A stretch of 22,926 nt of DNA from a virus. The stretch lies in IMG/VR virus record IMGVR_UViG_3300025141_000808, positions 1 to 22,926 of that record; one strand, 5' to 3'. The translations under genes were made by a program, and so were the position numbers. Below, in pieces: positions 6,165 through 22,926 of the stretch. The notes beneath the pieces are model-generated. The model had not been told where the DNA came from, made no database searches, and was given only the letters and a program-made list of their open reading frames with translations. How positions within the stretch are numbered: position 1 is the first letter of the stretch; each line of letters starts with the position of its first letter.

Positions 6165-6174
6165 AACTATTTAC
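6165..6174 (+). promoter_or_regulatory. AACTATTTAC intergenic motif, copy 3 (before sheath gene)
   Basis: Exact AACTATTTAC preceded by a T6 run (6157-6162) and an A-rich step, 54 bases before the sheath ATG. It is the same arrangement as copy 1. No terminator is visible between gp15 and this site, so it would add transcription on top of read-through. Confidence 0.5.
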
Positions 6175-6228: not shown

Positions 6229-9200
6229 ATGTCAGTTAATAAATTTAAGTTTGTATCCCCTGGAGTGTTCGTCTCAGAGGTTGACAATTCACAGTTACCC
6301 GGGCTTCCACGAGGGGTAGGACCAGTTGTTATAGGAAGGTCGCTTAAAGGACCAGCGATGCGCCCTATCCAAGTAGATTCCTTCTCAGAGTTTGTTGAGA
6401 CTTTCGGCAATCCTATTTTTGGTGGTGGTGCCTCAGACGTATGGAGAGCGGGCCCTAACGTTTCGGCTCCTTCCTATGGTACGTACGCTGCCCAAGCATA
6501 TTTACGAAACGAAAGTCCCCTTGTATTTGTTAGACTCGCAGGGATTAATATATCCAGTGCCACAGGTGATGGCGTTGCCGGCTGGGAAGCTAATTCGTCA
6601 GAAATGACGGGAAGTGGCGAAGGTGTTTATGGTGGCGGCGCGTTCGGCTTGTTTATCGCCCCCAATCCTGGTACCACTACCGCTATTGCGGCATCCGGCA
6701 CCTTGGAAACCCCTCTAAGCGGTACCGTCACCATCCTCGGCGATGAACAATTTATATTGACATCCTCCTTTGGAGGCAATATATATACTTTTATTGCTAC
6801 GGGATCAACTCCCGTCGACATAAGCACCACCAATCCATTCATATATGAGTTTGATGCAGGCGAAGCAGACGCACAAGGTCTAGGCATCACATCTACCAAT
6901 ATAGCAGCGCTTATTAACGCTAGCGCATCGGCAGATTTCACCGCTGTTTCTTCTTCAGTCGGAGTTACTATTAGCTCCACTGCGGTAGGTACTCTCGGTA
7001 ACGATGATAATCTTTCTTCGTCTCTTGCCGGCGCCGAACTGGTTGCAACTGATTTTACCGATGGTGTCAATAAGCTTGGCCCATTTACTGGTAGCCTTGC
7101 TGCCATCTTTTATGCACGAACTGGTTCAATCGGATTGAGTGGAACGTATGCAGATGGAGCCACAGAAGGTTCCGGAACTTGTGGAATTTTTAAATCTACT
7201 ACTTTGAATACCTTTACTGCTTGCATTAAAGATGCCGGCGGGACCACCACTGATAAAATAGTTTTTAATTTTAATGAGAATAGTAAACTTTTTATTAGAA
7301 ATGTTTTTAATACTAATCCAACGGCGATTAATTCCTCAACCAATGTCAATAAGACAGAAAACCAAAAAACTTATTTTCTTGGTGAATCTTTTGAGCGAAG
7401 CATTAGTGACTTAAGCGATCTCGACAATGGTAGTTATGGTGTTATTTTAGGGCTTGAGTCCAGTAGTGTGGCACAGCACATCCAGCGCACCGAGCTTACT
7501 GATGCTCAAACTGGATGGTTTTTTGCTCAAGATTTAAACGCGCCAGCTTCTTATGATGCGCTTAATATGCAGAAGCTTTTTAGGTTTGTTGGTCTTGATG
7601 GCGCCGAGTGGCCTCAGAATAATTTGAAGATTTCTATCACGAATATTACACCTTCAAATAACGAAGCGAATCCTTTTGGGTATTTTACAGTACAAATCAG
7701 AGATATTGCCGATAGTGATAACAATCCACGACCTGTAGAAACTTACAGCGATGTGAATTTGAATCCCGATTCTCCCAATTATATTGTGCGACGCATAGGG
7801 GATTCTTATACTCAGTGGGATGAAACTGCTAAAAGATATACGGTTTATGGTGATTATGTTAACATTTCTCGCTATGTGCGTATTGAACTGGATAGTGCCC
7901 TCAAACCAGATGGCCCTCCAGATTCTAAGATGTTGCCATTTGGAGTTTATGGTCCTACTCGATGGAAAGGCTTTGGTCTTAATAGCGGGAGTGCCACCGC
8001 GCTGGAGCCATATACTAGTGGCACTGCTAACCCCAACGTCTATGTTATTGGGAACAATGGGGTACCTGACTCGGTGGCAGATGATAACAATTTTGTTAAA
8101 ATAGGAGTTACTACGACACCAGCGACACAGCTTACTGGAACTTTCTTATTTCCAGCCGTACCTACTCGAACGAATAGTGACGATGGAATAATTACTAACC
8201 AGACGGATGCTTACTTCGGTGCAACGGCCAACATGAAGGATAGCAATCGGGTTGAGGCGAGTGTGAAAGATATGTTGAGGCGCAAGCCAAATGATAAAGG
8301 TGTCCAGACAACCAACCCCGAGGCTATAGAGTATTCATGGGTTTTCTCTTTGGATGATGTAGAGCCGGGCGTAAGCGGATCAACCGCAGCGTGGGCGAGT
8401 GGATCTAGAGCAGACGGCGATTCATATACAGCAACAGGTGATTACAAAACTGTTCTTGATGCTGGCTTTGATAGTTTTACTACTCTATTGAGTGAGGGTT
8501 TCGAGGGTGTAAATATCCTTGAGAAAGAACCTTTCCGCAATACAGTGTTGGTCGGCGGTACGGCAGGCACAAGCTATACTTATGCTTCACTAGAGCGCGC
8601 CATTGACACAGTGGCAGACGCCGACGTTGTTGAAGCCAATATGATGTCAGTGCCGGGACTTACGAACTCTACGCTTACAAGCAGGCTATTAGATGTCTGC
8701 GAAGCGCGTGGCGATTCGCTAGGGGTTATTGATCTGGAGGGTGGCTATACACCTGTCACAGAAAATGCAGAGGCTTCCGATTCAGATAGGATAGGATCAG
8801 TGCAAAATACCGTAGATCTGTTGAACAATAGAAACCTTAACAATAGTTATGGCTGTGCCTATTATCCATGGGTTCAAGTGACTGATACTGTCACCACGGG
8901 AGGCTCCTTGTGGGTGCCTCCAAGTGTTGTGGTCTTGGGAACTTTGGCTAGCAGTCAAGCGGCAAGTGAACTATGGTTCGCCCCAGCCGGCTTTACCAGA
9001 GGTGGCCTCACGGAAGGAAGTGCTGGCTTGCCGGTAACTAATGTACGGACTAGGCTAAATTCTAAAGAAAGAGATAGTCTTTACAACACCAACATTAATC
9101 CGATTGCCCAATTTCCTGCCGAAGGAATTGTAATTTTTGGACAGAAGACCCTTCAGGTTTCACAATCAGCACTAGATAGAATTAATGTACGTAGATTGAT

Positions 9201-9492
9201 GATTTATGTGAAGCGCGAGATTTCTCGCATTGCTGCCACCATGTTGTTTGAACAAAATGTACAAGCAACTTGGAATAGATTCTTAGGTAAAGTTAATCCT
9301 TTCCTGGGAAGCATTAAGACGCGCCTGGGATTGACTGACTATTTGGTAATTTTGGATGACACTACGACGACGCCTGATTTGGTTGATAGAAATATCTTAT
9401 ATGCTAAGATTTTCTTGAAGCCTGCTCGCGCTATTGAATTTATTGCTCTGGATTTTGTTATTACAAGAACTGGTGCAGGTTTTGAGGATTAA
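6229..9492 (+). CDS. 18: Contractile tail sheath protein, gp18-like, with inserted domain
   Basis: 1087 residues, against 659 in T4 gp18. The N terminus (FKFVSPGVFVSEVDNSQLPG, then GPVVIGRSLKGPAM) and the C-terminal domain (INVRRLMIYVKREISR, then RNILYAKIFLKPARAIEFIA) are the conserved parts that form the contractile core and the sheath-tube contacts. Residues ~160-285 look like an inserted Ser/Thr/Gly-rich beta domain (EQFILTSS, then IAALINASASADFTAV, then GTLGNDDN), of the kind found in many phage surface proteins. It separates AFGLFIAP from GSLAAIFYARTG. Extra length also lies in the middle (residues ~590-700). Start: AAGGAG 11 bases upstream. Confidence 0.93.
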   Translation: MSVNKFKFVSPGVFVSEVDNSQLPGLPRGVGPVVIGRSLKGPAMRPIQVDSFSEFVETFGNPIFGGGASDVWRAGPNVSAPSYGTYAAQAYLRNESPLVFVRLAGINISSATGDGVAGWEANSSEMTGSGEGVYGGGAFGLFIAPNPGTTTAIAASGTLETPLSGTVTILGDEQFILTSSFGGNIYTFIATGSTPVDISTTNPFIYEFDAGEADAQGLGITSTNIAALINASASADFTAVSSSVGVTISSTAVGTLGNDDNLSSSLAGAELVATDFTDGVNKLGPFTGSLAAIFYARTGSIGLSGTYADGATEGSGTCGIFKSTTLNTFTACIKDAGGTTTDKIVFNFNENSKLFIRNVFNTNPTAINSSTNVNKTENQKTYFLGESFERSISDLSDLDNGSYGVILGLESSSVAQHIQRTELTDAQTGWFFAQDLNAPASYDALNMQKLFRFVGLDGAEWPQNNLKISITNITPSNNEANPFGYFTVQIRDIADSDNNPRPVETYSDVNLNPDSPNYIVRRIGDSYTQWDETAKRYTVYGDYVNISRYVRIELDSALKPDGPPDSKMLPFGVYGPTRWKGFGLNSGSATALEPYTSGTANPNVYVIGNNGVPDSVADDNNFVKIGVTTTPATQLTGTFLFPAVPTRTNSDDGIITNQTDAYFGATANMKDSNRVEASVKDMLRRKPNDKGVQTTNPEAIEYSWVFSLDDVEPGVSGSTAAWASGSRADGDSYTATGDYKTVLDAGFDSFTTLLSEGFEGVNILEKEPFRNTVLVGGTAGTSYTYASLERAIDTVADADVVEANMMSVPGLTNSTLTSRLLDVCEARGDSLGVIDLEGGYTPVTENAEASDSDRIGSVQNTVDLLNNRNLNNSYGCAYYPWVQVTDTVTTGGSLWVPPSVVVLGTLASSQAASELWFAPAGFTRGGLTEGSAGLPVTNVRTRLNSKERDSLYNTNINPIAQFPAEGIVIFGQKTLQVSQSALDRINVRRLMIYVKREISRIAATMLFEQNVQATWNRFLGKVNPFLGSIKTRLGLTDYLVILDDTTTTPDLVDRNILYAKIFLKPARAIEFIALDFVITRTGAGFED

Positions 9493-9498
9493 ATTTAA

Positions 9499-9519
9499 AA
9501 GTATTTACTATTTATAGTA
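9499..9519 (+). promoter_or_regulatory. AAGTATTTAC motif, copy 4, overlapping a 6-bp inverted repeat (before tube gene)
   Basis: AAGTATTTAC (9499-9508) differs from the consensus by one base. It runs into a second overlapping copy, ACTATTTATAG (9507-9517), and an inverted repeat TACTAT-TT-ATAGTA (9506-9519). It ends 29 bases before the tube ATG. TATTTATA here is the reverse complement of the T4 late promoter box TATAAATA, but lies in the opposite sense to the genes. Confidence 0.45.
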
Positions 9520-9547: not shown

Positions 9548-10099
9548 ATGCCATTTTGGGGAACAGCAGCAGTATCAGATCCGAAGAGATCATTTAGATG
9601 GATCCTTGATCTAGGAGTAGATGGGTTAGCAGACAATATTTCCTATATTTGTAAGAAGATTCAAAAGCCGACTATGAATATCGCAGAAGCAGAACATAAG
9701 TTTCTTAACCATAGTTTTTATTATCCTGGTAGCGTTAGTTATGACAAGATTACGATGGTATTGGTTGACCCTGCCAACCCCCACTCCACGCAGGCATTAT
9801 ATAATTTGATTCAAGATTCTGGGTATGAATTGCCCGGCAACATCACAGATGATGTGGGGGTGGGTAACGGCACCTCTACCATTAGCAAGAGATTGGCAAC
9901 TTCTAAGATTAATGATTGCAAGATTACAATGTTAGATGGTTCCGGAAACAAAATTGAAGAGACTCTCCTAAAGAATGCATGGATAGCTAAGGTAGATTTC
10001 GGCGGCGAGTTAGATTACGAGACAGAAGATCTTATGCAAATTACTGTGGACTTCAGGTTTGATTGGTTTGAACTAAAAACATTCGACCAGTCGGCCTAA
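9548..10099 (+). CDS. 19: Tail tube protein, gp19-like
   Basis: 183 residues (T4 gp19: 163). It polymerises as hexamer rings inside the sheath to form the DNA conduit. The order sheath-tube and the size fit. The N terminus has the typical FWGTAAVSDPKRSFRWIL, and the body alternates short beta strands (VSYDKITMVLVDP, then AWIAKVDFGGELDYE and MQITVDFRFDWFEL) as in the gp19/Hcp-like fold. GAGGAG lies ten bases before the ATG. It is followed at 19 bases by the gp26-type gene. Confidence 0.92.
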   Translation: MPFWGTAAVSDPKRSFRWILDLGVDGLADNISYICKKIQKPTMNIAEAEHKFLNHSFYYPGSVSYDKITMVLVDPANPHSTQALYNLIQDSGYELPGNITDDVGVGNGTSTISKRLATSKINDCKITMLDGSGNKIEETLLKNAWIAKVDFGGELDYETEDLMQITVDFRFDWFELKTFDQSA

Positions 10100-11216: not shown

Positions 11217-11226
11217 AACTATTTAA
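11217..11226 (+). promoter_or_regulatory. AACTATTTAA intergenic motif, copy 5 (after terminator, before 115-residue gene)
   Basis: One mismatch from AACTATTTAC, seven bases after the terminator T run. It is only 19 bases from the GTG start and five bases from the SD (GGAGG 11232-11236). This short distance limits how it could work as a promoter, because a start site ten bases downstream would remove the SD. Confidence 0.4.
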
Positions 11227-11245: not shown

Positions 11246-11593
11246 GTGAATGAAAGTAATAATGATGACCTGGTTCCAATGGTAATAGATTTTACCGAAG
11301 CGCGTAACGCGGAAGGGAAGATACAGGAATCGTGGATATTAACATTTGGCGCAATATTGCGATGGATGATGCCGTCTCTTTATAAAGGCTCAGTCCTCCC
11401 ACTTACCGTGAAGGGAACTTCCGGAGAGATAAAAAGTTTTGCCGATGTGTTGGGCAAAGAAAAGAAATATCTTCAATCTTGGAAAGACAACGGCTTAGAT
11501 AGTCCCGTTACCTACCAAAACCAGACTAAGTTAGCTCGGTCTGTTTCTAAGTTTGAAAGAGTGACAGGGTTGAAATGGCCATTTAAAAAGTAA
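11246..11593 (+). CDS. Small conserved-type phage protein of unknown function upstream of tape measure
   Basis: 115 residues, no recognised family. The middle contains WILTFGAILRWMMPSLYKGS and LPLTVKGTSGEIKSFADVLG, and the end is basic (ETG-like turn, then LKWPFKK). No signal peptide or certain membrane span is visible, although residues ~28-46 are hydrophobic. GTG start chosen because GGAGG (11232-11236) lies nine bases upstream; an in-frame ATG at 11279 has no SD. It stands between a terminator and the tape measure, so a role in tail assembly, for example with the tape measure, is the natural guess, but it is only a guess. Confidence 0.75.
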   Translation: MNESNNDDLVPMVIDFTEARNAEGKIQESWILTFGAILRWMMPSLYKGSVLPLTVKGTSGEIKSFADVLGKEKKYLQSWKDNGLDSPVTYQNQTKLARSVSKFERVTGLKWPFKK

Positions 11594-15485: not shown

Positions 15486-18400
15486 ATGGGATTGTTTGGA
15501 GAGAGCGAAGAAGATAAAGCCAACCGTCTAGCTGACGAAGCCTATCAGCGCCGGCTAGATAAGGAAGCCGCGGCCGAAGCGATGCGTGAAAAGCAGGCGC
15601 GCATCCATGAACAAGAAGAGGCTGTAAGGTTCTCCAACAAAAGCGGGTATGAGGCATATGAAGACTTAGCAAATGCCCCTTTGGATGCTACTGAAAACTC
15701 TGAGCGCGCCCAAATGGGCCTCACGAAAGCGCAGTACAACATTGTCAAGCGGGATGAGATGGGGCTTCCGGTAGCGGACACTCCTGCAAACCGCAAACTT
15801 TTGAAAAAGAAAGGCATTAGCGATGAACACGCTCAGAATGTCTCCAAGACCCTCGCAGGCAAGGAAGTTAATGGAAAGAAAGGCTATGCGGGATTAGCCG
15901 AAGCCCAAAAGATAAAAGATGCGAAGCTGGATGCCCTCAAGTCTCGCAAGAGAAGAGGGAAGGGGGGACTTTCTGCCGAACAGCAGGCGTTACGAGCCTT
16001 ACTTGCGGCTCAAACTCACCAAAACTTTATTATGCAAAACATGCGAACGTTCTCTTCCCTCGCATGGCATCCTGAAGCGCAAGACTTGGAACACCTCATA
16101 TTGGTTTCCAAGTATAAAGGAAATTTAGTTAACAAACTTACTACGAGCGCTCGTTTGGGACCTCTAATGGATGCATCTCCCTATCAGCTAAGTCAACTGG
16201 TGCCCTACTTCCGTCTTGCAAAGAAGAATAAGGAAGGGAAGCTAACTGAATTTCAATTTATGGATCGTTTAAAAGATCACTACTATGATCAAGAGGGGGT
16301 GAAACAGGTGTTGAAGAGTTCGTTGGGGCAAGGAGTGGGCCTGAAGAGTTTTAGATGGCGCACAACGGGCACCAACATGTTTAGCGCACCCAGAACATTG
16401 AGAGCAACTCTCTCTTTACACTTCCAATCTGTCAGCGAATTGGTGAGGACTGCTCGCATAGATGAAAGGGAGGGCCCTCTTTGGCAAGACTTGATAGTTC
16501 CTCAACGTGGCGTCACCCACCCACAAGGATGTCCAACTGCCTACGAGGACATAAACTCCAAGATAAACAGATTAGCATCTCAGACTGAGGCCCGAGCAAT
16601 GGGCCCACCAGCGCAAGTCGAGAAGAAAAAAGAACCACCTGACTTCTCTTTGGTGGTGGAAGCCGGCTGGAACTATACAGTGAAAAGCGACATCCCCCAG
16701 AATTTAAAAGAGGCAGTGGATATGAGTCGCACCGTTCTTAATCTAACTCTGGTCAGTCATAAATTTAATTTTCGTGATAATGGCAGCATTGACTTAGATA
16801 TAGAATACATTGCGCGCCTTGAATCAATCATTGAAAGTTATGGGGCCAATTTGTTGACTGCGCCAGTCGATGGAAAGCCGAATAATATTCTTACAGAATT
16901 GGCAGAGGCGAGGAGAAAAGCAGCCCAGATGAATGTTGCGTTGGATAGTCCAACTGGAGATTTTAATTGTTTGGACAGAGTGGCCAGTGAGAAACAGAAA
17001 GAGAGGATTGATAAGCAAGCGTCCAAAGTAGATAAAAAGATACGCAAGTTAGAACAAAAGGTTGAAGCGCTCGTGACTCGCTCAAAGGTTTCAATGTATG
17101 GAAAATTTACCCAACACATGATAGAGCAACAGTTGCTTATTGCCATCGATCTACCAGAGAAGGATTATGCGGAGGGAAATCTCCCACCTGCCGATGAAAT
17201 TGATTTGGATAATTCTAGTTTTCTTTCTAAAGATTCTGCTAACAAGAAGAACCCAACGCGACTGCCGTCGCTAACTGAAGGTACGGCAAAAGCAGTCAAC
17301 CAAATTTCTACAGGCAGAGGAGCAGATCGTGAGGTTAGTGCAAAGAAACTTTTAAGCAGGGCGCTAGGACATATTGAGTGGGATCGGCCACCCAAAAAAG
17401 GATATGAGCGACTCTCTTATTTTTATTTAGGAGATTTGATTAATTTTTTCGCCGGCATTCTTCCAGCCCAAGACGCCAATAGCACTGATAGGTTTGAAAT
17501 CGTCTTAGGGGATTTAGTTTTCTTAGACTACAAACAAGTAGGAGCAACCCTGGAGGAAGCGGTGGGAGCCTACGGCAAGGATGAGTATGAAGATTTGGAC
17601 GAGACAGAAAAAAAAGAAGCGTCCACACTAGCGGAAGAGGAGATCTATTCAAATATGAGCGCCTATACGATTAAGCAAAACCTAGCGACGGTACCGGTTT
17701 CCTTTGCGGCTTACACAAAATGGTTTGCGGAGGAGGTTATTAATGGGGATACAGTTTTTACCTTCAAAAGTTTTTTACAGTCCCTTACGACTAAGTTAAT
17801 TGTAGGCGCTCTTCAAGCAACCGACAACTCACCAGTTAGTGGCGATCTCAGAAGGATGCTGAAGGAAAGAAATCGTGTTCGGGCCACTACAATTTATGGT
17901 AAAAACAAAGCCCTTCGCCGGGGAAGGTTGACTACAGAAACCCTGACTCCACGCAAGGAAAGCAATCTGCTTATTAAGCCTGCTCTTGCAGAAGAGGAAA
18001 ACAACGCAAAACCAGTAGAGGGAGACGAGCATGGGAACGCTCATAAGAACCGACAGTTTTTTATTCTGTCGGCCAGTCGCCTTCCTCGGGCATCGCAGGT
18101 CGTAGACGAAAAGATAAACGCGGAAGAGGGAGTATACCATCTAAAGATTGGGGCTGACAGAGGTCTTTTAAAGAAGTTGTCTTTAGAGCGCGAGTCAAAT
18201 GCACGCATCAGGGATGCCAACATAATGCGCGCATACAATCAGGGGAGCCCGTCGCTAGGAATTATCCAGGAACCTTATAATGCCAGCATACAGGTGTATG
18301 GGTGTAGTTTTTTTCAGCCCGGACAATATGTTTATTTAAATCCTACCAATATTGGACTAGGAACATCTTTGGAAAGGTACTCAATTGCGCGCCGGATAGG

Positions 18401-18710
18401 GATCGGCGGATTTTACATAATCACAGAGGTGTCTACTCTTCTGGAAAAGGGGATTCTCGAAACTACTTTAAAATGCATTTTCCAAGATTATGGATATTTG
18501 CCCGATAGCAGGGAAGCAGACGACCGCACCGACCCAGTTCAGGAAATTAGCATGGACGATATGTGGAAAGAGGTCATGCGAGAGGAGATTGATAGGCAAG
18601 ACCAGCGGAAAGAAAAGATTGCCTCAAATAGGCGCGAGGGGCGCGCCCGAGCAGCCAAACTAGCAGAGGAGAATGCACAGCTCAGAGCGCAGTGCGATAA
18701 ATTTAAATGA
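15486..18710 (+). CDS. Large tail/baseplate structural protein, unassigned (1074 residues)
   Basis: 1074 residues. Residues 1-160 are charged and helical, similar to an assembly tail. Residues ~185-330 contain LSQLVPYFRLAKKNKEGK and TLRATLSLHFQSVSELVRTA, patterns of beta-rich baseplate proteins. Residues ~415-470 have NLTLVSHKFNFRDNGSIDLD. A coiled coil follows at ~510-545 (KQKERIDKQASKVDKKIRKL), and a C-terminal domain with IQVYGCSFFQPGQYVYLNP, then GGFYIITEVSTLLEKG. The C terminus is again a charged helix. I cannot name a T4 homologue; length is like gp7 (1032), but the position after gp48/54- and gp53-like genes also fits a hub or wedge protein. Its stop overlaps the next start as ATGA. 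Confidence 0.7.
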   Translation: MGLFGESEEDKANRLADEAYQRRLDKEAAAEAMREKQARIHEQEEAVRFSNKSGYEAYEDLANAPLDATENSERAQMGLTKAQYNIVKRDEMGLPVADTPANRKLLKKKGISDEHAQNVSKTLAGKEVNGKKGYAGLAEAQKIKDAKLDALKSRKRRGKGGLSAEQQALRALLAAQTHQNFIMQNMRTFSSLAWHPEAQDLEHLILVSKYKGNLVNKLTTSARLGPLMDASPYQLSQLVPYFRLAKKNKEGKLTEFQFMDRLKDHYYDQEGVKQVLKSSLGQGVGLKSFRWRTTGTNMFSAPRTLRATLSLHFQSVSELVRTARIDEREGPLWQDLIVPQRGVTHPQGCPTAYEDINSKINRLASQTEARAMGPPAQVEKKKEPPDFSLVVEAGWNYTVKSDIPQNLKEAVDMSRTVLNLTLVSHKFNFRDNGSIDLDIEYIARLESIIESYGANLLTAPVDGKPNNILTELAEARRKAAQMNVALDSPTGDFNCLDRVASEKQKERIDKQASKVDKKIRKLEQKVEALVTRSKVSMYGKFTQHMIEQQLLIAIDLPEKDYAEGNLPPADEIDLDNSSFLSKDSANKKNPTRLPSLTEGTAKAVNQISTGRGADREVSAKKLLSRALGHIEWDRPPKKGYERLSYFYLGDLINFFAGILPAQDANSTDRFEIVLGDLVFLDYKQVGATLEEAVGAYGKDEYEDLDETEKKEASTLAEEEIYSNMSAYTIKQNLATVPVSFAAYTKWFAEEVINGDTVFTFKSFLQSLTTKLIVGALQATDNSPVSGDLRRMLKERNRVRATTIYGKNKALRRGRLTTETLTPRKESNLLIKPALAEEENNAKPVEGDEHGNAHKNRQFFILSASRLPRASQVVDEKINAEEGVYHLKIGADRGLLKKLSLERESNARIRDANIMRAYNQGSPSLGIIQEPYNASIQVYGCSFFQPGQYVYLNPTNIGLGTSLERYSIARRIGIGGFYIITEVSTLLEKGILETTLKCIFQDYGYLPDSREADDRTDPVQEISMDDMWKEVMREEIDRQDQRKEKIASNRREGRARAAKLAEENAQLRAQCDKFK

Positions 18711-19960
18711 AATTTAGTGGCGGATCCAATACAAATACTGCGCATCAATCGTTTGTCTTCCGACAGCAATATGCTTTCAACTATCCGCCGGGGATAAGAG
18801 ACTACAGGCAGATTAATCTGTGGTATAATGAAATGCTATTTGGGCGAGTTGATCAGGGAGGCAACATAGTTTATCCCTCCGAAGCTTTCTTAAAACAATT
18901 ACACACCAGCGGTAAACGTACTTATTTTGTTCTTAATTTTGTTGCAGACGCGTATGAAGCTTTTCGCGATACTGTAAGGGCACAAGAAACTCACAACCAC
19001 TTTCTCAATGTGGATGGCACTCCTTTTGAGAAGCGCTTCGAGCCGACGCGAGGATGGATTAGTATTAACGAAAATTACAACACTTATATACAAGATTATT
19101 ATGATAGTTTTGTACTACCTTTCATGGCCAATCCCGCTCGTAAAGAGGACATAAGAACTTTTGATGATTTTATAACAGAATTTACTCGGATGATTGATCG
19201 GACGTCGCTGTTGGTACCTTTCACCAAGACGGAGTACATCGTCAGTAAATATGGCTCTCCCCTTACTAGCGGGCTCGTTGTAGAGTTTGCGAATAAAGAC
19301 CATGGTGATGACTCTATGAAGATACTGGATTTTGTAAATAATATTAACTTTGAACTATATCGAGAGGTTGCTAGCCAGAATGGTTTTGCTGTTGACATGA
19401 ACGCGCCATGGCGGCTCATCGCGGATATCGGATCGGATGCCATGAGTCGGTTTATGAAAGAGTATGATCAGAGTTTAGACACCGTGTTTGATGCGTATTA
19501 CTATAAATCTTCTTACTTTGATATTCCCAATTTAAAGGTATATTTGTCGGATTTTTATGACGGATTTGTGAGATCCTTCCCCACCATTCATATTCCCCAT
19601 GTAGGCCCGCTGACCCCCCAAGCCATCGCCACCGAAGCGGCGGAGCATGGCGCCCGAAATATTAGCTTGACAACAGTAGAAAATCGTGATATAATGGCAC
19701 CAGAGGATTATAAATTTAAGTACAATAACTTATTCTGGATTCGCCTTTGTATTTTTATAAGGGCAAAAGAAACAAATCAAAACTGGGATCAACACAAGTT
19801 TGATCATGTGGTAAAGCGAGCGAGTGAGTTTTATATGTATTCGACAGAAATGGCAATGTTAAAGTTTATAAAAAAAGAATTGGAGCGAGATCCGGGAGAG
19901 TATTTTCTAGCCGACCAAAGGCGGCGCGGATCATTTGACTTTAAAAGAAAGCGAGCGTAG
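18707..19960 (+). CDS. Unassigned phage protein, probably structural (417 residues)
   Basis: 417 residues; no family recognised. The sequence is globular and aromatic-rich: HQSFVFRQQYAFNYPPGIRD and YRQINLWYNEMLFGRVDQGG at the start, TRGWISINENYNTYIQDYYD near residue 115, and a basic end (RRRGSFDFKRKRA). The ATG overlaps the previous TGA (ATGA) and has no SD, so translation is probably coupled to the 1074-residue baseplate-type gene, which argues for a virion role. Its 3' third contains a perfect sigma70 promoter (19667-19695) that would serve the downstream replication genes, making this the last gene of the virion block. Confidence 0.65.
   Translation: MKFSGGSNTNTAHQSFVFRQQYAFNYPPGIRDYRQINLWYNEMLFGRVDQGGNIVYPSEAFLKQLHTSGKRTYFVLNFVADAYEAFRDTVRAQETHNHFLNVDGTPFEKRFEPTRGWISINENYNTYIQDYYDSFVLPFMANPARKEDIRTFDDFITEFTRMIDRTSLLVPFTKTEYIVSKYGSPLTSGLVVEFANKDHGDDSMKILDFVNNINFELYREVASQNGFAVDMNAPWRLIADIGSDAMSRFMKEYDQSLDTVFDAYYYKSSYFDIPNLKVYLSDFYDGFVRSFPTIHIPHVGPLTPQAIATEAAEHGARNISLTTVENRDIMAPEDYKFKYNNLFWIRLCIFIRAKETNQNWDQHKFDHVVKRASEFYMYSTEMAMLKFIKKELERDPGEYFLADQRRRGSFDFKRKRA
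19667..19695 (+). promoter_or_regulatory. Perfect sigma70 promoter inside the 417-residue gene
   Basis: TTGACA (19667-19672), 17-base spacer, TATAAT (19690-19695): full consensus at optimal spacing. It lies 266 bases before the DNA polymerase GTG and would drive the polymerase-MazG-tubulin operon. It shares CTTGACAAC and TATAATGG with the promoter at 22564. Confidence 0.8.
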
Positions 19961-19961
19961 A

Positions 19962-21152
19962 GTGAATAATGTTTTTACTGTTTTAGATTCAAAAAAAGAG
20001 TGTTTAGGATATTATTACAACGGGGAAATTAAAGAGCAGAAAACTGAAGATCAGTTCATCACATGGGATTATAAACCAGAATTTCATGATGATGCCATTG
20101 AGTATGTAGAGTTGTATGCTTTAGGGAAGTCGTTGGAAGAAGTATGTCCTGAACACTTAAGAGAAGAGTGGGAGAAATTACAATCTAGAAAGGGAGCATT
20201 TCAAAATGCTTTAGTGGTGTCTAAGGTAGACCCCGGTAATGTGTGCGCTTATGATGTTATCCCCCAATGGTTCTTAAAAGAATATTCACAAGTTAAGTGT
20301 GATATCCTCGAATGGATTTTTTATAACATGGACAAGCCCTTGAACTATCCCACTATGCTCAGGTTAGAAAAGCTTTTTGCTGAGATAAAAAATAATTCTT
20401 TGAATATTGATTTGAGTGTCATGAAGGGAGAGCTATCCTCCATGCTTGTGAGGCAGAACCTAAAGAAGTTGAGCGCCGTAAACAATACTCTTGATTATAA
20501 TCAATTCGGGTCAGTTACAGGGCGCCTTACCTTGGAGAAGGGGAGTTTTCCAATTCTCAACTTGCCCAAGAATTTTAGAAAGGTTCTCAAGCCTACTAAT
20601 AATTTCTTTGTGGAATTTGATTACAACGCTGCAGAGCTAAGAACGATGTTGGCGCTCATGGATATAGAACAGCCCAAAGAAGACATTCATAACTGGAACA
20701 TACGCCACATCTTCCAGGATGGATGCTCTAGGGAAGAAGCAAAGAAGCGAGTTTTCGCGTGGTTGTATAATCCGCAGTCTCAAGATGATCTTTTAAACAA
20801 AGCATACAAGCGTGATGAAGTGTTGTCTAAGTACTGGGATGGTACGAAAGTTACCACCCCATTTGGGAGAGTAATAGAAGCGAGCGAACATTATGCTTTA
20901 AACTATCTCATTCAAAGCACCACGAGCGATCTCGTCTTGGAGCAGGTGCTCAAAGTAAGCGAATTCATTGAGGAAACGCCCTCAAAAATAGTTTTTTTGA
21001 TCCACGACAGTTTTGTGCTTGACATTCCCGCAGAATCGCGGTATAATATACCCGAGATCAAAAACATATTTGCGTCCAATCGCTTCGGAGAGTATAGGGT
21101 TGGAGTGAGAGTGGGAAAAGATTTTGGTAGCATGAAGGAGATTAGAGTATGA
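19962..21152 (+). CDS. Family A DNA polymerase, polymerase domain only (no 3'-5' exonuclease)
   Basis: 396 residues from GTG 19962; an in-frame TTG at 19935 would add nine. Numbering from GTG: TGRL at 187-190 (Klenow R668 region), motif A DYNAAELR at 220-227 (metal Asp220, steric-gate Glu225), motif B O-helix R257-x3-K261-x3-F265-x3-Y269 (Klenow R754/K758/F762/Y766), TPFGR, then N314-x3-Q318, and motif C HDSF at 348-351. So all catalytic motifs are present. Deviations: the Gly after the O-helix Tyr is Asn, and the Glu of motif C (HDE) is Ser. Thumb, palm and fingers fit in the length; the exonuclease domain is absent. The start follows the previous stop by one base with a weak SD. Classical T4 relatives use family B gp43. 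Confidence 0.88.
   Translation: MNNVFTVLDSKKECLGYYYNGEIKEQKTEDQFITWDYKPEFHDDAIEYVELYALGKSLEEVCPEHLREEWEKLQSRKGAFQNALVVSKVDPGNVCAYDVIPQWFLKEYSQVKCDILEWIFYNMDKPLNYPTMLRLEKLFAEIKNNSLNIDLSVMKGELSSMLVRQNLKKLSAVNNTLDYNQFGSVTGRLTLEKGSFPILNLPKNFRKVLKPTNNFFVEFDYNAAELRTMLALMDIEQPKEDIHNWNIRHIFQDGCSREEAKKRVFAWLYNPQSQDDLLNKAYKRDEVLSKYWDGTKVTTPFGRVIEASEHYALNYLIQSTTSDLVLEQVLKVSEFIEETPSKIVFLIHDSFVLDIPAESRYNIPEIKNIFASNRFGEYRVGVRVGKDFGSMKEIRV
21019..21047 (+). promoter_or_regulatory. Perfect sigma70 promoter inside the polymerase gene
   Basis: TTGACA (21019-21024), 17-base spacer, TATAAT (21042-21047). It is 101 bases before the MazG-like ATG, within codons just after polymerase motif C. It would give extra transcription of the MazG- and tubulin-like genes relative to the polymerase. 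Confidence 0.78.
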
Positions 21153-21463
21153 CGTATTATGATAAACTAGTTCGGGATAGAATCCCCGAAATCTTAGATA
21201 AGAAAAATAAAGAATTTGTAGCGTATAGGGTAGCAGATTGTGATTACTCCCTTTATTTAAAGAGGAAACTCCGCGAAGAGGTTGAGGAATTTTTAGAATC
21301 TCCCTCGGTCCACGAGTTAGCGGATGTGTATGAGGTATTAAGTGCTCTTCTTAAGGATATGGATTACACGATGGCAGACGTGAGAGCAGAGCGCGCATCT
21401 AAGATAGAAGAACGGGGCGCCTTCGACGACCGCTGGATATTGGCAGAAGTTAAAGATGATTAG
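21149..21463 (+). CDS. MazG/HisE-like nucleotide pyrophosphohydrolase
   Basis: 104 residues. The all-alpha NTP pyrophosphohydrolase pattern is clear: KLVRDRIPEIL at 6-16, the metal-binding EEVEE at 43-47 followed by ELAD at 56-59 (ExxE...ExxD), and ERGAFDDRWIL at 88-98. This small subfamily (phosphoribosyl-ATP pyrophosphohydrolase-like) is common in phages. MazG proteins hydrolyse (d)NTPs to monophosphates, and in phages have been proposed to clean up or rebalance nucleotide pools; the substrate here cannot be read from sequence. The ATG overlaps the polymerase stop (ATGA) and has its own GAAGGAG eight bases upstream. It overlaps the next gene by eight bases. Confidence 0.85.
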   Translation: MTYYDKLVRDRIPEILDKKNKEFVAYRVADCDYSLYLKRKLREEVEEFLESPSVHELADVYEVLSALLKDMDYTMADVRAERASKIEERGAFDDRWILAEVKDD

Positions 21464-22301
21464 CGTTATTGGGGTAGGCAATGCGGGATGTAATGTTGCT
21501 GACTTACTCGCAGACCACGATCCCTATACTATCTACAAAATTGATACCCTCCTTCCCAAGGAAAAGGGATGTTTTTCGATTGCCAAGTGTACCAATGCCG
21601 AAGATTACGAAAGTAAGCTCTCGGCTAAGGTGACAAATGCATTGAAAAAGATTAGTGGACCGGTGGTCCTTATAGTGGCCGGCGGTGGGAAGATATCGTC
21701 CGCGACTCTACGCATTCTAGAGTGTGTGCGTGACAATCCAATTGAGGTAATATATATTAAGCCCGATCTGTCTACCGTTAGCGCCACAGCACAGACGCTG
21801 GACAAGATAACTTTCGGTATACTACAGGAGTATGCGAGGTCAGGCATTTTTGAGAGACTCTACGTAGCATCTAACACAGAGATTGAGAGAGCAGTAGGAA
21901 ACATTCCTCTCTCTCAATATTATCCTAAGATAAATGCCATAATAGCATCCACTTTCCATATGTTGAATGTCTACAAAAATACGCCCGCCAGTTTTTCCAG
22001 TTTTTTGGATTCAGATGGCATCTCGCGTATCTCTACAATTGGGGTGGGAACATTGGATAAGGTGGTAGATCAGATGTTTTTTCCTCTTGACTATGTGGGG
22101 GAGAAAAATTACTATTTTGCGATAAAACAGAAACAGTTGGATGAGGATCCAGAATTACTAGCTAACATCAAGAGGAGAGTAAAGCAGGACGATCCAACCA
22201 TTAAGACGGGATTTGGGGTATATGCTACGCCCTATGACCAGAATTACATTTATATTGTAGCAAACACAAAAATCATACAAGGAGTAAATTATGATGAGTA
22301 A
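21456..22301 (+). CDS. FtsZ/tubulin-like GTPase homologue (divergent)
   Basis: 281 residues (FtsZ ~380, phage PhuZ ~315). Begins ISVIGVGNAGCNVADLL (residues 2-18), matching the FtsZ T1 segment IGVGGGGGNAV. VLIVAGGGKISSATLRIL at 71-88 is at the place of the tubulin signature GGGTGTG, but only GGG is kept. YVASNTEIERAVGNIPLSQ at 136-154 fits the FtsZ nucleotide-contacting 'PND' region, and FLDSDGISRISTIGVG at 183-198 the T7-loop region, with Asp185/Asp187 as possible catalytic acids. It is a short protein with no FtsZ-type C-terminal tail. The eight-base overlap with the MazG-like gene implies coupling. Possible roles are a phage filament for DNA or capsid positioning, or interference with host FtsZ. 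Fold assignment is fairly likely; GTPase activity uncertain. Confidence 0.65.
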   Translation: MISVIGVGNAGCNVADLLADHDPYTIYKIDTLLPKEKGCFSIAKCTNAEDYESKLSAKVTNALKKISGPVVLIVAGGGKISSATLRILECVRDNPIEVIYIKPDLSTVSATAQTLDKITFGILQEYARSGIFERLYVASNTEIERAVGNIPLSQYYPKINAIIASTFHMLNVYKNTPASFSSFLDSDGISRISTIGVGTLDKVVDQMFFPLDYVGEKNYYFAIKQKQLDEDPELLANIKRRVKQDDPTIKTGFGVYATPYDQNYIYIVANTKIIQGVNYDE

Positions 22302-22575
22302 AATATACGCGGGAATGTTCCGCAAGAAGAACAATGATCTGAGGCACATGACTTTTGTCAAGTTAGACGATGTACCAGATACTTTTTTGGAAACTAAAAT
22401 TAAGGATAAGTCTAAAGATCGCACGATGCCCACAGGCATGGAATTGGTGTGGGATCTCGACAAGGCAGATTTTCGCGTCTTTAATTATACCGCCCAAGTA
22501 GGTGATCTCAGGGAGATAGATATGACCGACGAGGAAAAAGATAAAATTTTCGCAAACAAAAGCTTGACAACCTGA
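22291..22575 (+). CDS. Small phage protein of unknown function (94 residues)
   Basis: 94 residues; function not recognised. Basic N-terminal half (KIYAGMFRKKNNDLRHMTF, FVKLDDVPDTFLETKIK), then MPTGMELVWDLDKADFRVFN and an acidic end (DMTDEEKDKIF). The FVKL.D.P..FL...G.E.VWDLD..FR.FN pattern looks familiar from small proteins of T4-like marine phages, but I know no function. It has tandem ATGs; AAGGAG precedes by six bases, and the second ATG overlaps the stop region of the tubulin-like gene. The -35 of the SSB promoter lies in its last codons, so it ends the polymerase operon. Confidence 0.75.
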   Translation: MMSKIYAGMFRKKNNDLRHMTFVKLDDVPDTFLETKIKDKSKDRTMPTGMELVWDLDKADFRVFNYTAQVGDLREIDMTDEEKDKIFANKSLTT

Positions 22576-22592
22576 TTTGGTTGTGCTATAAT
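22564..22592 (+). promoter_or_regulatory. Perfect sigma70 promoter for the ssDNA-binding protein gene
   Basis: TTGACA (22564-22569), 17-base spacer, TATAAT (22587-22592), followed by GGGG. The SSB ATG is 31 bases past the -10, so the expected leader is about 25 bases with AAGGAG at 22612-22617. The -35 overlaps the end of the 94-residue gene. Confidence 0.9.
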
Positions 22593-22623
22593 GGGGATGT
22601 CGTTTAGATAAAAGGAGAAAATA

Positions 22624-22926
22624 ATGGCAATTGATATGAAGAAAATGCAAAGTAAATTTAGTAATCTTAAAGCACGTAGTGGCGGAGGTTCTTGGTGGAA
22701 ACCTAACGATGGTGTGCAAACCATTCGCATTCTTCCAACGGAAGACGGGGATCCTTTCAAGAGTTTCTATTTTCACTACAATATTGGCAAGGAAAATGGT
22801 TTTCTTTGTCCAAACAACAATTTTGGCGACGACTGTCCAGTCTGTGGTTTTGTGAAGAATCTTTACCGTGAAGGTGATGATGAATCCAAGAACATGGCCC
22901 GACAGTTGAACGCTAAGAGTCGCTTC
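22624..22926 (+). CDS. 32: Single-stranded DNA-binding protein, gp32-like (N-terminal 101 residues, runs off window)
   Basis: 101 residues to the window edge, no stop. The N terminus is basic (MKKMQSKFSNLKARSGGGSW), fitting the T4 gp32 B-domain that mediates cooperative binding. WWKPNDGVQTIRILP at 24-38 starts the OB fold. A zinc site H51-x10-C62-x8-C71-x2-C74 matches T4 gp32 His64-x12-Cys77-x9-Cys87-x2-Cys90 closely. gp32 coats ssDNA and organises replication and recombination. It has a consensus sigma70 promoter of its own and AAGGAG six bases before the ATG, as expected for an abundant early protein. A full protein would be about 250-300 residues. Confidence 0.9.
   Translation, partial: MAIDMKKMQSKFSNLKARSGGGSWWKPNDGVQTIRILPTEDGDPFKSFYFHYNIGKENGFLCPNNNFGDDCPVCGFVKNLYREGDDESKNMARQLNAKSRF

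Follow-up and report, generated by a model that had tools for sequence, protein, structure and literature searches.

The early promoters of bacteriophage T4 are built from an UP element, a -35 box, a TGn extension, and a -10 box, with conserved A-11 and T-7 and A-rich sequence at -40 to -44 (PMC2988021, PMC1524935). The same UP/-35/TGn/-10 design has been described for five T4-like phages (PMC1524935). The -35 box of the T4 early promoters reads GTTTAC, and the T4-like phages RB49, RB43, and Aeh1 have a G at position -33 (PMC2988021, PMC1524935). In the middle promoters of T4 a MotA box replaces the -35 box (PMC2988021), and the late promoters of T4-like phages carry the element TATAAATA at -13 to -6, with CTAAATA in Aeh1 (PMC1524935).

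Gene content of the window

The window, which is the stretch of DNA analysed here, is the entire 22,926-base record of an uncultured virus contig. Its structural genes (major head protein, tail sheath, tail tube, and baseplate) are T4-related, and the source virus belongs to an uncultured T4-related marine clade. A search of annotated phages with the window DNA did not reveal any match; about 90 related contigs were gathered for comparison. The tail sheath gene (6229-9492) encodes 1087 residues and is far longer than the best-matching sheath profile with its 496 positions.

Most close relatives share the gene order structural gene - polymerase - (small gene) - FtsZ-fold gene - small gene - SSB, and all these genes are on the + strand of the window. 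The final gene of the structural block (18707-19960, 417 residues, no family match) carries the first of the three promoter sites described below in its codons 321-330. It is followed by a family A DNA polymerase without exonuclease domain (19962-21152; PF00476, E 8.5e-13; phrog_17), which probably starts at the GTG at 19962 and carries the second site. The polymerase is short (396 residues), its motif C reads HDS and not HDE, and a tblastn search with it did not find a relative in annotated phages. The relatives additionally encode the alpha subunit of DNA polymerase III. The next gene (21149-21463) encodes a small protein with an LVRDRIP motif, for which all library matches are below the cut-off and which may be MazG-like. 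The gene at 21456-22301, downstream of the second site, encodes an FtsZ-fold protein, whose structural model (pLDDT 94) matches FtsZ structures with E ~1e-13 and a TM score of ~0.7. Of the FtsZ motifs, the GGGTGTG box and the catalytic T7 loop are apparently missing, and in about 40 relatives the gene is found between the polymerase and SSB genes. A small conserved gene with a weak match to phrog_1086 (22291-22575) overlaps with its 3' end the -35 box of the third site, and the gp32-type single-strand DNA-binding protein (SSB; 22624-22926; PF08804; phrog_1192) is cut by the end of the window.

Three perfect promoter sites

Three exact TTGACA-N17-TATAAT sequences are present on the + strand at 19667-19695 (site 1), 21019-21047 (site 2), and 22564-22592 (site 3), exactly where the first-pass annotation had placed them. 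Its observation that the first 19.6 kb contain none holds for spacings of 15-19 and both strands, because these three are the only matches in the whole record. Dinucleotide shuffles of the window contained on average 0.05 matches at spacings of 15-19 and never reached three, the base composition predicts 0.006 perfect N17 sites in the window considering both strands, and the reversed pattern, searched as a control, has 0 matches. The chance rate of one in 17 million assumed before needs to be corrected to about one per 7 million positions based on the base composition. A weight matrix trained on the relatives, with the window excluded but the orthologs of its three sites included, scores sites 1, 2, and 3 at 36, 25, and 35, while the next site on the + strand reaches 6.0 and the best site on the - strand 0.8.

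All three sites have the features of sigma70 promoters, namely the -35 box TTGACA, the -10 box TATAAT, and a spacing within 16-18 bases. The extended -10 element TGn is present at sites 1 and 3 but not at site 2. An A-rich UP element at -40 to -45 is clearest at site 3 and weaker at site 1, and site 2 is T-rich in this region. Site 1 consists of the -35 box at 19667-19672, an N17 spacer with the extension TGA at 19687-19689, and the -10 box at 19690-19695, and transcription is predicted to start near 19702. The respective boxes of site 2 are at 21019-21024 and 21042-21047, with a predicted start near 21054. Site 3 comprises an A-rich stretch resembling a proximal UP element (22554-22563), the -35 box (22564-22569), the extension TGC (22584-22586), and the -10 box (22587-22592), with a predicted start near 22599. 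Each site had been supposed to lie upstream of a replication-type gene, which is correct for site 1 (polymerase) and site 3 (SSB) but not for site 2, which precedes a small gene and the FtsZ-fold gene. The first-pass annotation also does not mention that sites 1 and 2 are within genes.

A promoter class shared by related contigs

In 23 related records we identified 61 perfect sites, of which 60 are on one strand within their own record, and the reversed pattern is found 0 times. Fifteen contigs (682 kb including the window) could be oriented by the polymerase gene. They contain 49 perfect N17 sites on the forward and 0 on the reverse strand, which is not the scatter at equal density over both strands that would have spoken against promoters, although these counts are descriptive because the relatives share ancestry and are not independent, so that the codon test presented below weighs most. 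Allowing one mismatch, there are 61 forward and 2 reverse N17 sites in these contigs compared to a Markov expectation of 2.1, and spacings other than N17 are close to zero. Across all contigs, the weight matrix at a threshold of 18 picks up 121 sites on the forward strand and 0 on the reverse strand. Most sites with up to one mismatch (100 of 110) are located outside the structural blocks, and the ten inside are all orthologs of site 1.

The spacers differ in sequence among the relatives but are constant in length. When the sites are aligned, A-rich sequence at -45 to -40, TGTGn or TGn before the -10 box, and TATAAT become visible, with TGn in more than half of the sites. A C precedes TTGACA in 86-100% of the sites, and in 93% of those of the near clade. 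Judged from these alignments, the full motif is an A-tract, CTTGACA, an N17 spacer ending in TGn, and TATAAT. The sequences CTTGACAAC and TATAATGG, which the first-pass annotation had noted as common to sites 1 and 3, are truly present there. Of their additional letters, however, only the C before TTGACA is general among the relatives, which do not conserve the "AAC" and the "GG".

In the relatives, the genes downstream of these promoters encode DnaB helicase, DNA polymerase III alpha, SSB, and D12 and C5 DNA methyltransferases, as well as a Mom-like enzyme, a dCMP deaminase, and the chaperone Hsp20. The proposal of a regulon of the replication block is therefore right with respect to the replication genes but too narrow. 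Because the promoter class is also found before DNA-modification and chaperone genes, the regulon comprises the non-structural genes in general. In contig L112, a Mom-like DNA modification gene (17542-18453) is located immediately behind a promoter of the CTTGACA class. In L126, near 18343, an inverted repeat of 12 bases has the -10 box of a promoter in its loop and is followed by TTTTT, an arrangement resembling an overlap of terminator and promoter.

Some promoters of a sister clade contain an additional element. Of 26 independent promoter families, 11 have GATC in the same register at -19 to -16, while 0.12 would be expected. Such promoters (TGATCTGn-TATAAT) were found in L105-L125 (records G005, G014, G017, G018, and G019); the three promoters of the window do not have the element. 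G017 and G018 of the sister clade and G010 of the window's clade encode adenine methyltransferases of the D12 type that score above the family cut-off. The GATC may be an operator, serve as a methylation switch, or represent an extended -10 element specific to this lineage. It is conceivable but rather unlikely that the early programme of the sister clade is switched or timed at GATC by adenine methylation or a dedicated operator-binding protein.

Conservation of the individual sites

Site 1 is located inside the coding sequence of the gene at 18707-19960, about 270 bases before the start of the polymerase gene. In the relatives, TTGACA and CGTGn are invariant down to 39% amino acid identity. 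The -10 box varies but always reads TAnnnT, and thus T-12, A-11, and T-7 are kept. These are the bases on which sigma70 depends most. For the codon test we compared 17 sequences (this gene and its relatives), in which 78 columns have a conserved residue that at least two codons can encode. Just three of the 78 columns use a single codon throughout, and these are L321 (TTG) and T322 (ACA), which form the -35 box, and R327 (CGT) in the extended -10 element. With the frozen codons exactly on the promoter boxes, selection on the promoter can be told apart from selection on the protein. As read from these codons, the promoter is frozen at the codon level in the last gene of the structural block, which borders the replication genes.

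Site 2 is found near the 3' end of the polymerase gene, and the next gene starts about 100 bases further downstream. It is perfect in all relatives whose polymerases are at least 67% identical. L030 matches it at 11 of 12 positions, and the remaining, more distant relatives lack it, including most of those with a polymerase identity of 55% or less. The site overlaps the conserved polymerase motif C (HDSFVLDIP), and therefore its conservation is partly driven by the protein. Single codons are used in 27 of 208 such conserved, degenerate columns of the polymerase, many of them clustered around the site (residues 343-367), so that here the codon signal is real, although general conservation contributes to it.

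Site 3 spans the 3' end of the gene at 22291-22575, and its -10 box ends 31 nucleotides before the SSB start codon. Each of the 12 non-redundant sequences with an SSB at least 65% identical (window included) matches the boxes at N17 in 11 or all 12 of the 12 positions. Among the more distant SSB relatives, 21 of 32 score at least 10 of 12, compared to 2% of shuffled sequences. Inverted repeats across the promoters were rejected as a feature because they are not above the intergenic background. An example is the repeat ACAACC-6-GGTTGT of site 3, in which the relatives show one paired change.

The earlier assertion that the sites must be selected has thus been borne out, as they are strand-specific, located outside the structural block except for site 1 and its orthologs, conserved, and frozen in their codons at site 1. 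Because the relatives retain them even inside protein-coding genes, the three sites are, as far as sequence comparison can tell, almost certainly real promoters.

A candidate late promoter element

A second motif, ACTATTTA, is enriched in front of genes of the same contigs. It is present in 48 upstream regions compared to 6.5 expected, and its reverse complement in 0. The + strand of the window contains four copies in total, which all precede genes of the structural block: at 205-212 before the gene at 248, at 6166-6173 before the tail sheath gene at 6229, at 9507-9514 before the tail tube gene at 9548, and at 11218-11225 before the gene at 11246. In the relatives, some copies are located within genes or away from the structural block. 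We regard ACTATTTA as a candidate late promoter element.

Function of the promoters

The three sites very probably are strong primary-sigma (sigma70-type) promoters of an early, pre-replicative programme with a build like that of T4 early promoters. From the motifs and their positions we infer that the sites are active as promoters, that they act early and are read by the unmodified host RNA polymerase, and that ACTATTTA has a late role. In the initial stage of infection, the host RNA polymerase would be drawn to the three strong sites. From site 1, transcription would begin in the last gene of the structural block and proceed into the DNA polymerase gene, a start at site 2 within the polymerase gene would re-supply the small gene and the FtsZ-fold gene, and site 3 would provide a separate strong start for SSB. 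The replication module would accordingly be read from three nested starts. The structural genes, which do not have promoters of the CTTGACA class, would probably be read later from the ACTATTTA-containing class.

Given that sites 1 and 2 are part of coding sequence and encode conserved residues, with site 2 overlapping motif C of the polymerase, their letters might have been kept for the protein and the promoter match might be incidental. Upon synonymous resampling site 2 stays perfect in 3.5% and site 1 in 1.3% of the trials. However, both survive together in only 0.03%, the synonymous codons across the 17 diverged relatives are frozen only at the -35 box and the extended -10 element of site 1, and site 3 and most of the sites in the relatives are intergenic. 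An origin from coding constraint is thus very unlikely, and for site 1 the codon pattern already contradicts it. A reading of the motif by a phage-encoded sigma factor or activator instead of the host primary sigma is hardly to be expected. The motif is indeed tighter than typical bacterial promoters, as seen in the C before TTGACA and the register-locked GATC of the sister clade, but every element fits the canonical host consensus, and searches for Sigma70_r2 in 8 relatives and for gp55 homologs in 11 did not give any match.

The sites might also be active sigma70 promoters that are used throughout infection or in a middle phase, for example for priming replication origins. They adjoin the polymerase and SSB genes, and the sequence alone does not fix any timing. 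However, the full -35 box distinguishes them from the MotA-box middle class of T4, and a different motif is present upstream of the structural genes, so that such use seems improbable compared to the early programme. Concerning early use by the host polymerase, the promoter set suggests a host whose primary sigma recognises canonical -35 and -10 boxes. The clue to the sigma70 type of the host seen in the first-pass annotation agrees with this but is weak and does not name the host, and a search of genome contigs for the host with SSB and the FtsZ-fold protein did not find any relative. Perfect N17 sites are absent from T4, T7, lambda, SP-15, a T4-related phage of Flavobacterium, and Rhodothermus phage RM378. 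Their absence from the phages of Flavobacterium and Rhodothermus, which represent hosts of the Bacteroidota type, fits a host with canonical sigma70 -35 and -10 boxes. The comparison provides a very clean promoter map for an uncultured clade of T4-related marine phages, in which candidate early and late regulons are separated by sequence alone.

Comparison with known phage promoters

A T4-type middle promoter with a MotA box centred at -30 was considered and rejected, since all three sites have a full TTGACA -35 box. Identity with the T4-type late promoter was also rejected, since the + strand of the window does not contain TATAAATA. Both ACTATTTA and the T4-like TATAAATA are found before structural genes, and ACTATTTA may be the counterpart of this short AT-rich element.

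The promoters of the window's clade share with the T4 early promoters the A-rich UP element, the 17-base spacing, the TGn, the A-11 and T-7, and the placement at pre-replicative genes. In the relatives, they precede pre-replicative genes and are absent from late genes, as is the case for the early promoters of T4. They differ in the -35 box, which is CTTGACA with a C and not a G before TTGAC, and hence neither GTTTAC nor GTTGAC is found. Like the window's clade, the marine T4-like phages HTVC008M of Pelagibacter and P-HM2 of cyanobacteria have several TTGACW...TATAAT sites, and in HTVC008M TGTGA often precedes the -10 box. Perfect N17 sites are, however, fewer there, with 5 in the 147 kb of HTVC008M and 2 in the 184 kb of P-HM2 compared to 49 in 682 kb of the window's clade. 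Based on this comparison, our claim is limited to promoters that would work like a T4 early promoter and does not extend to identity with the T4 consensus. The three sites are a new example of an already known kind of phage "early" promoter.
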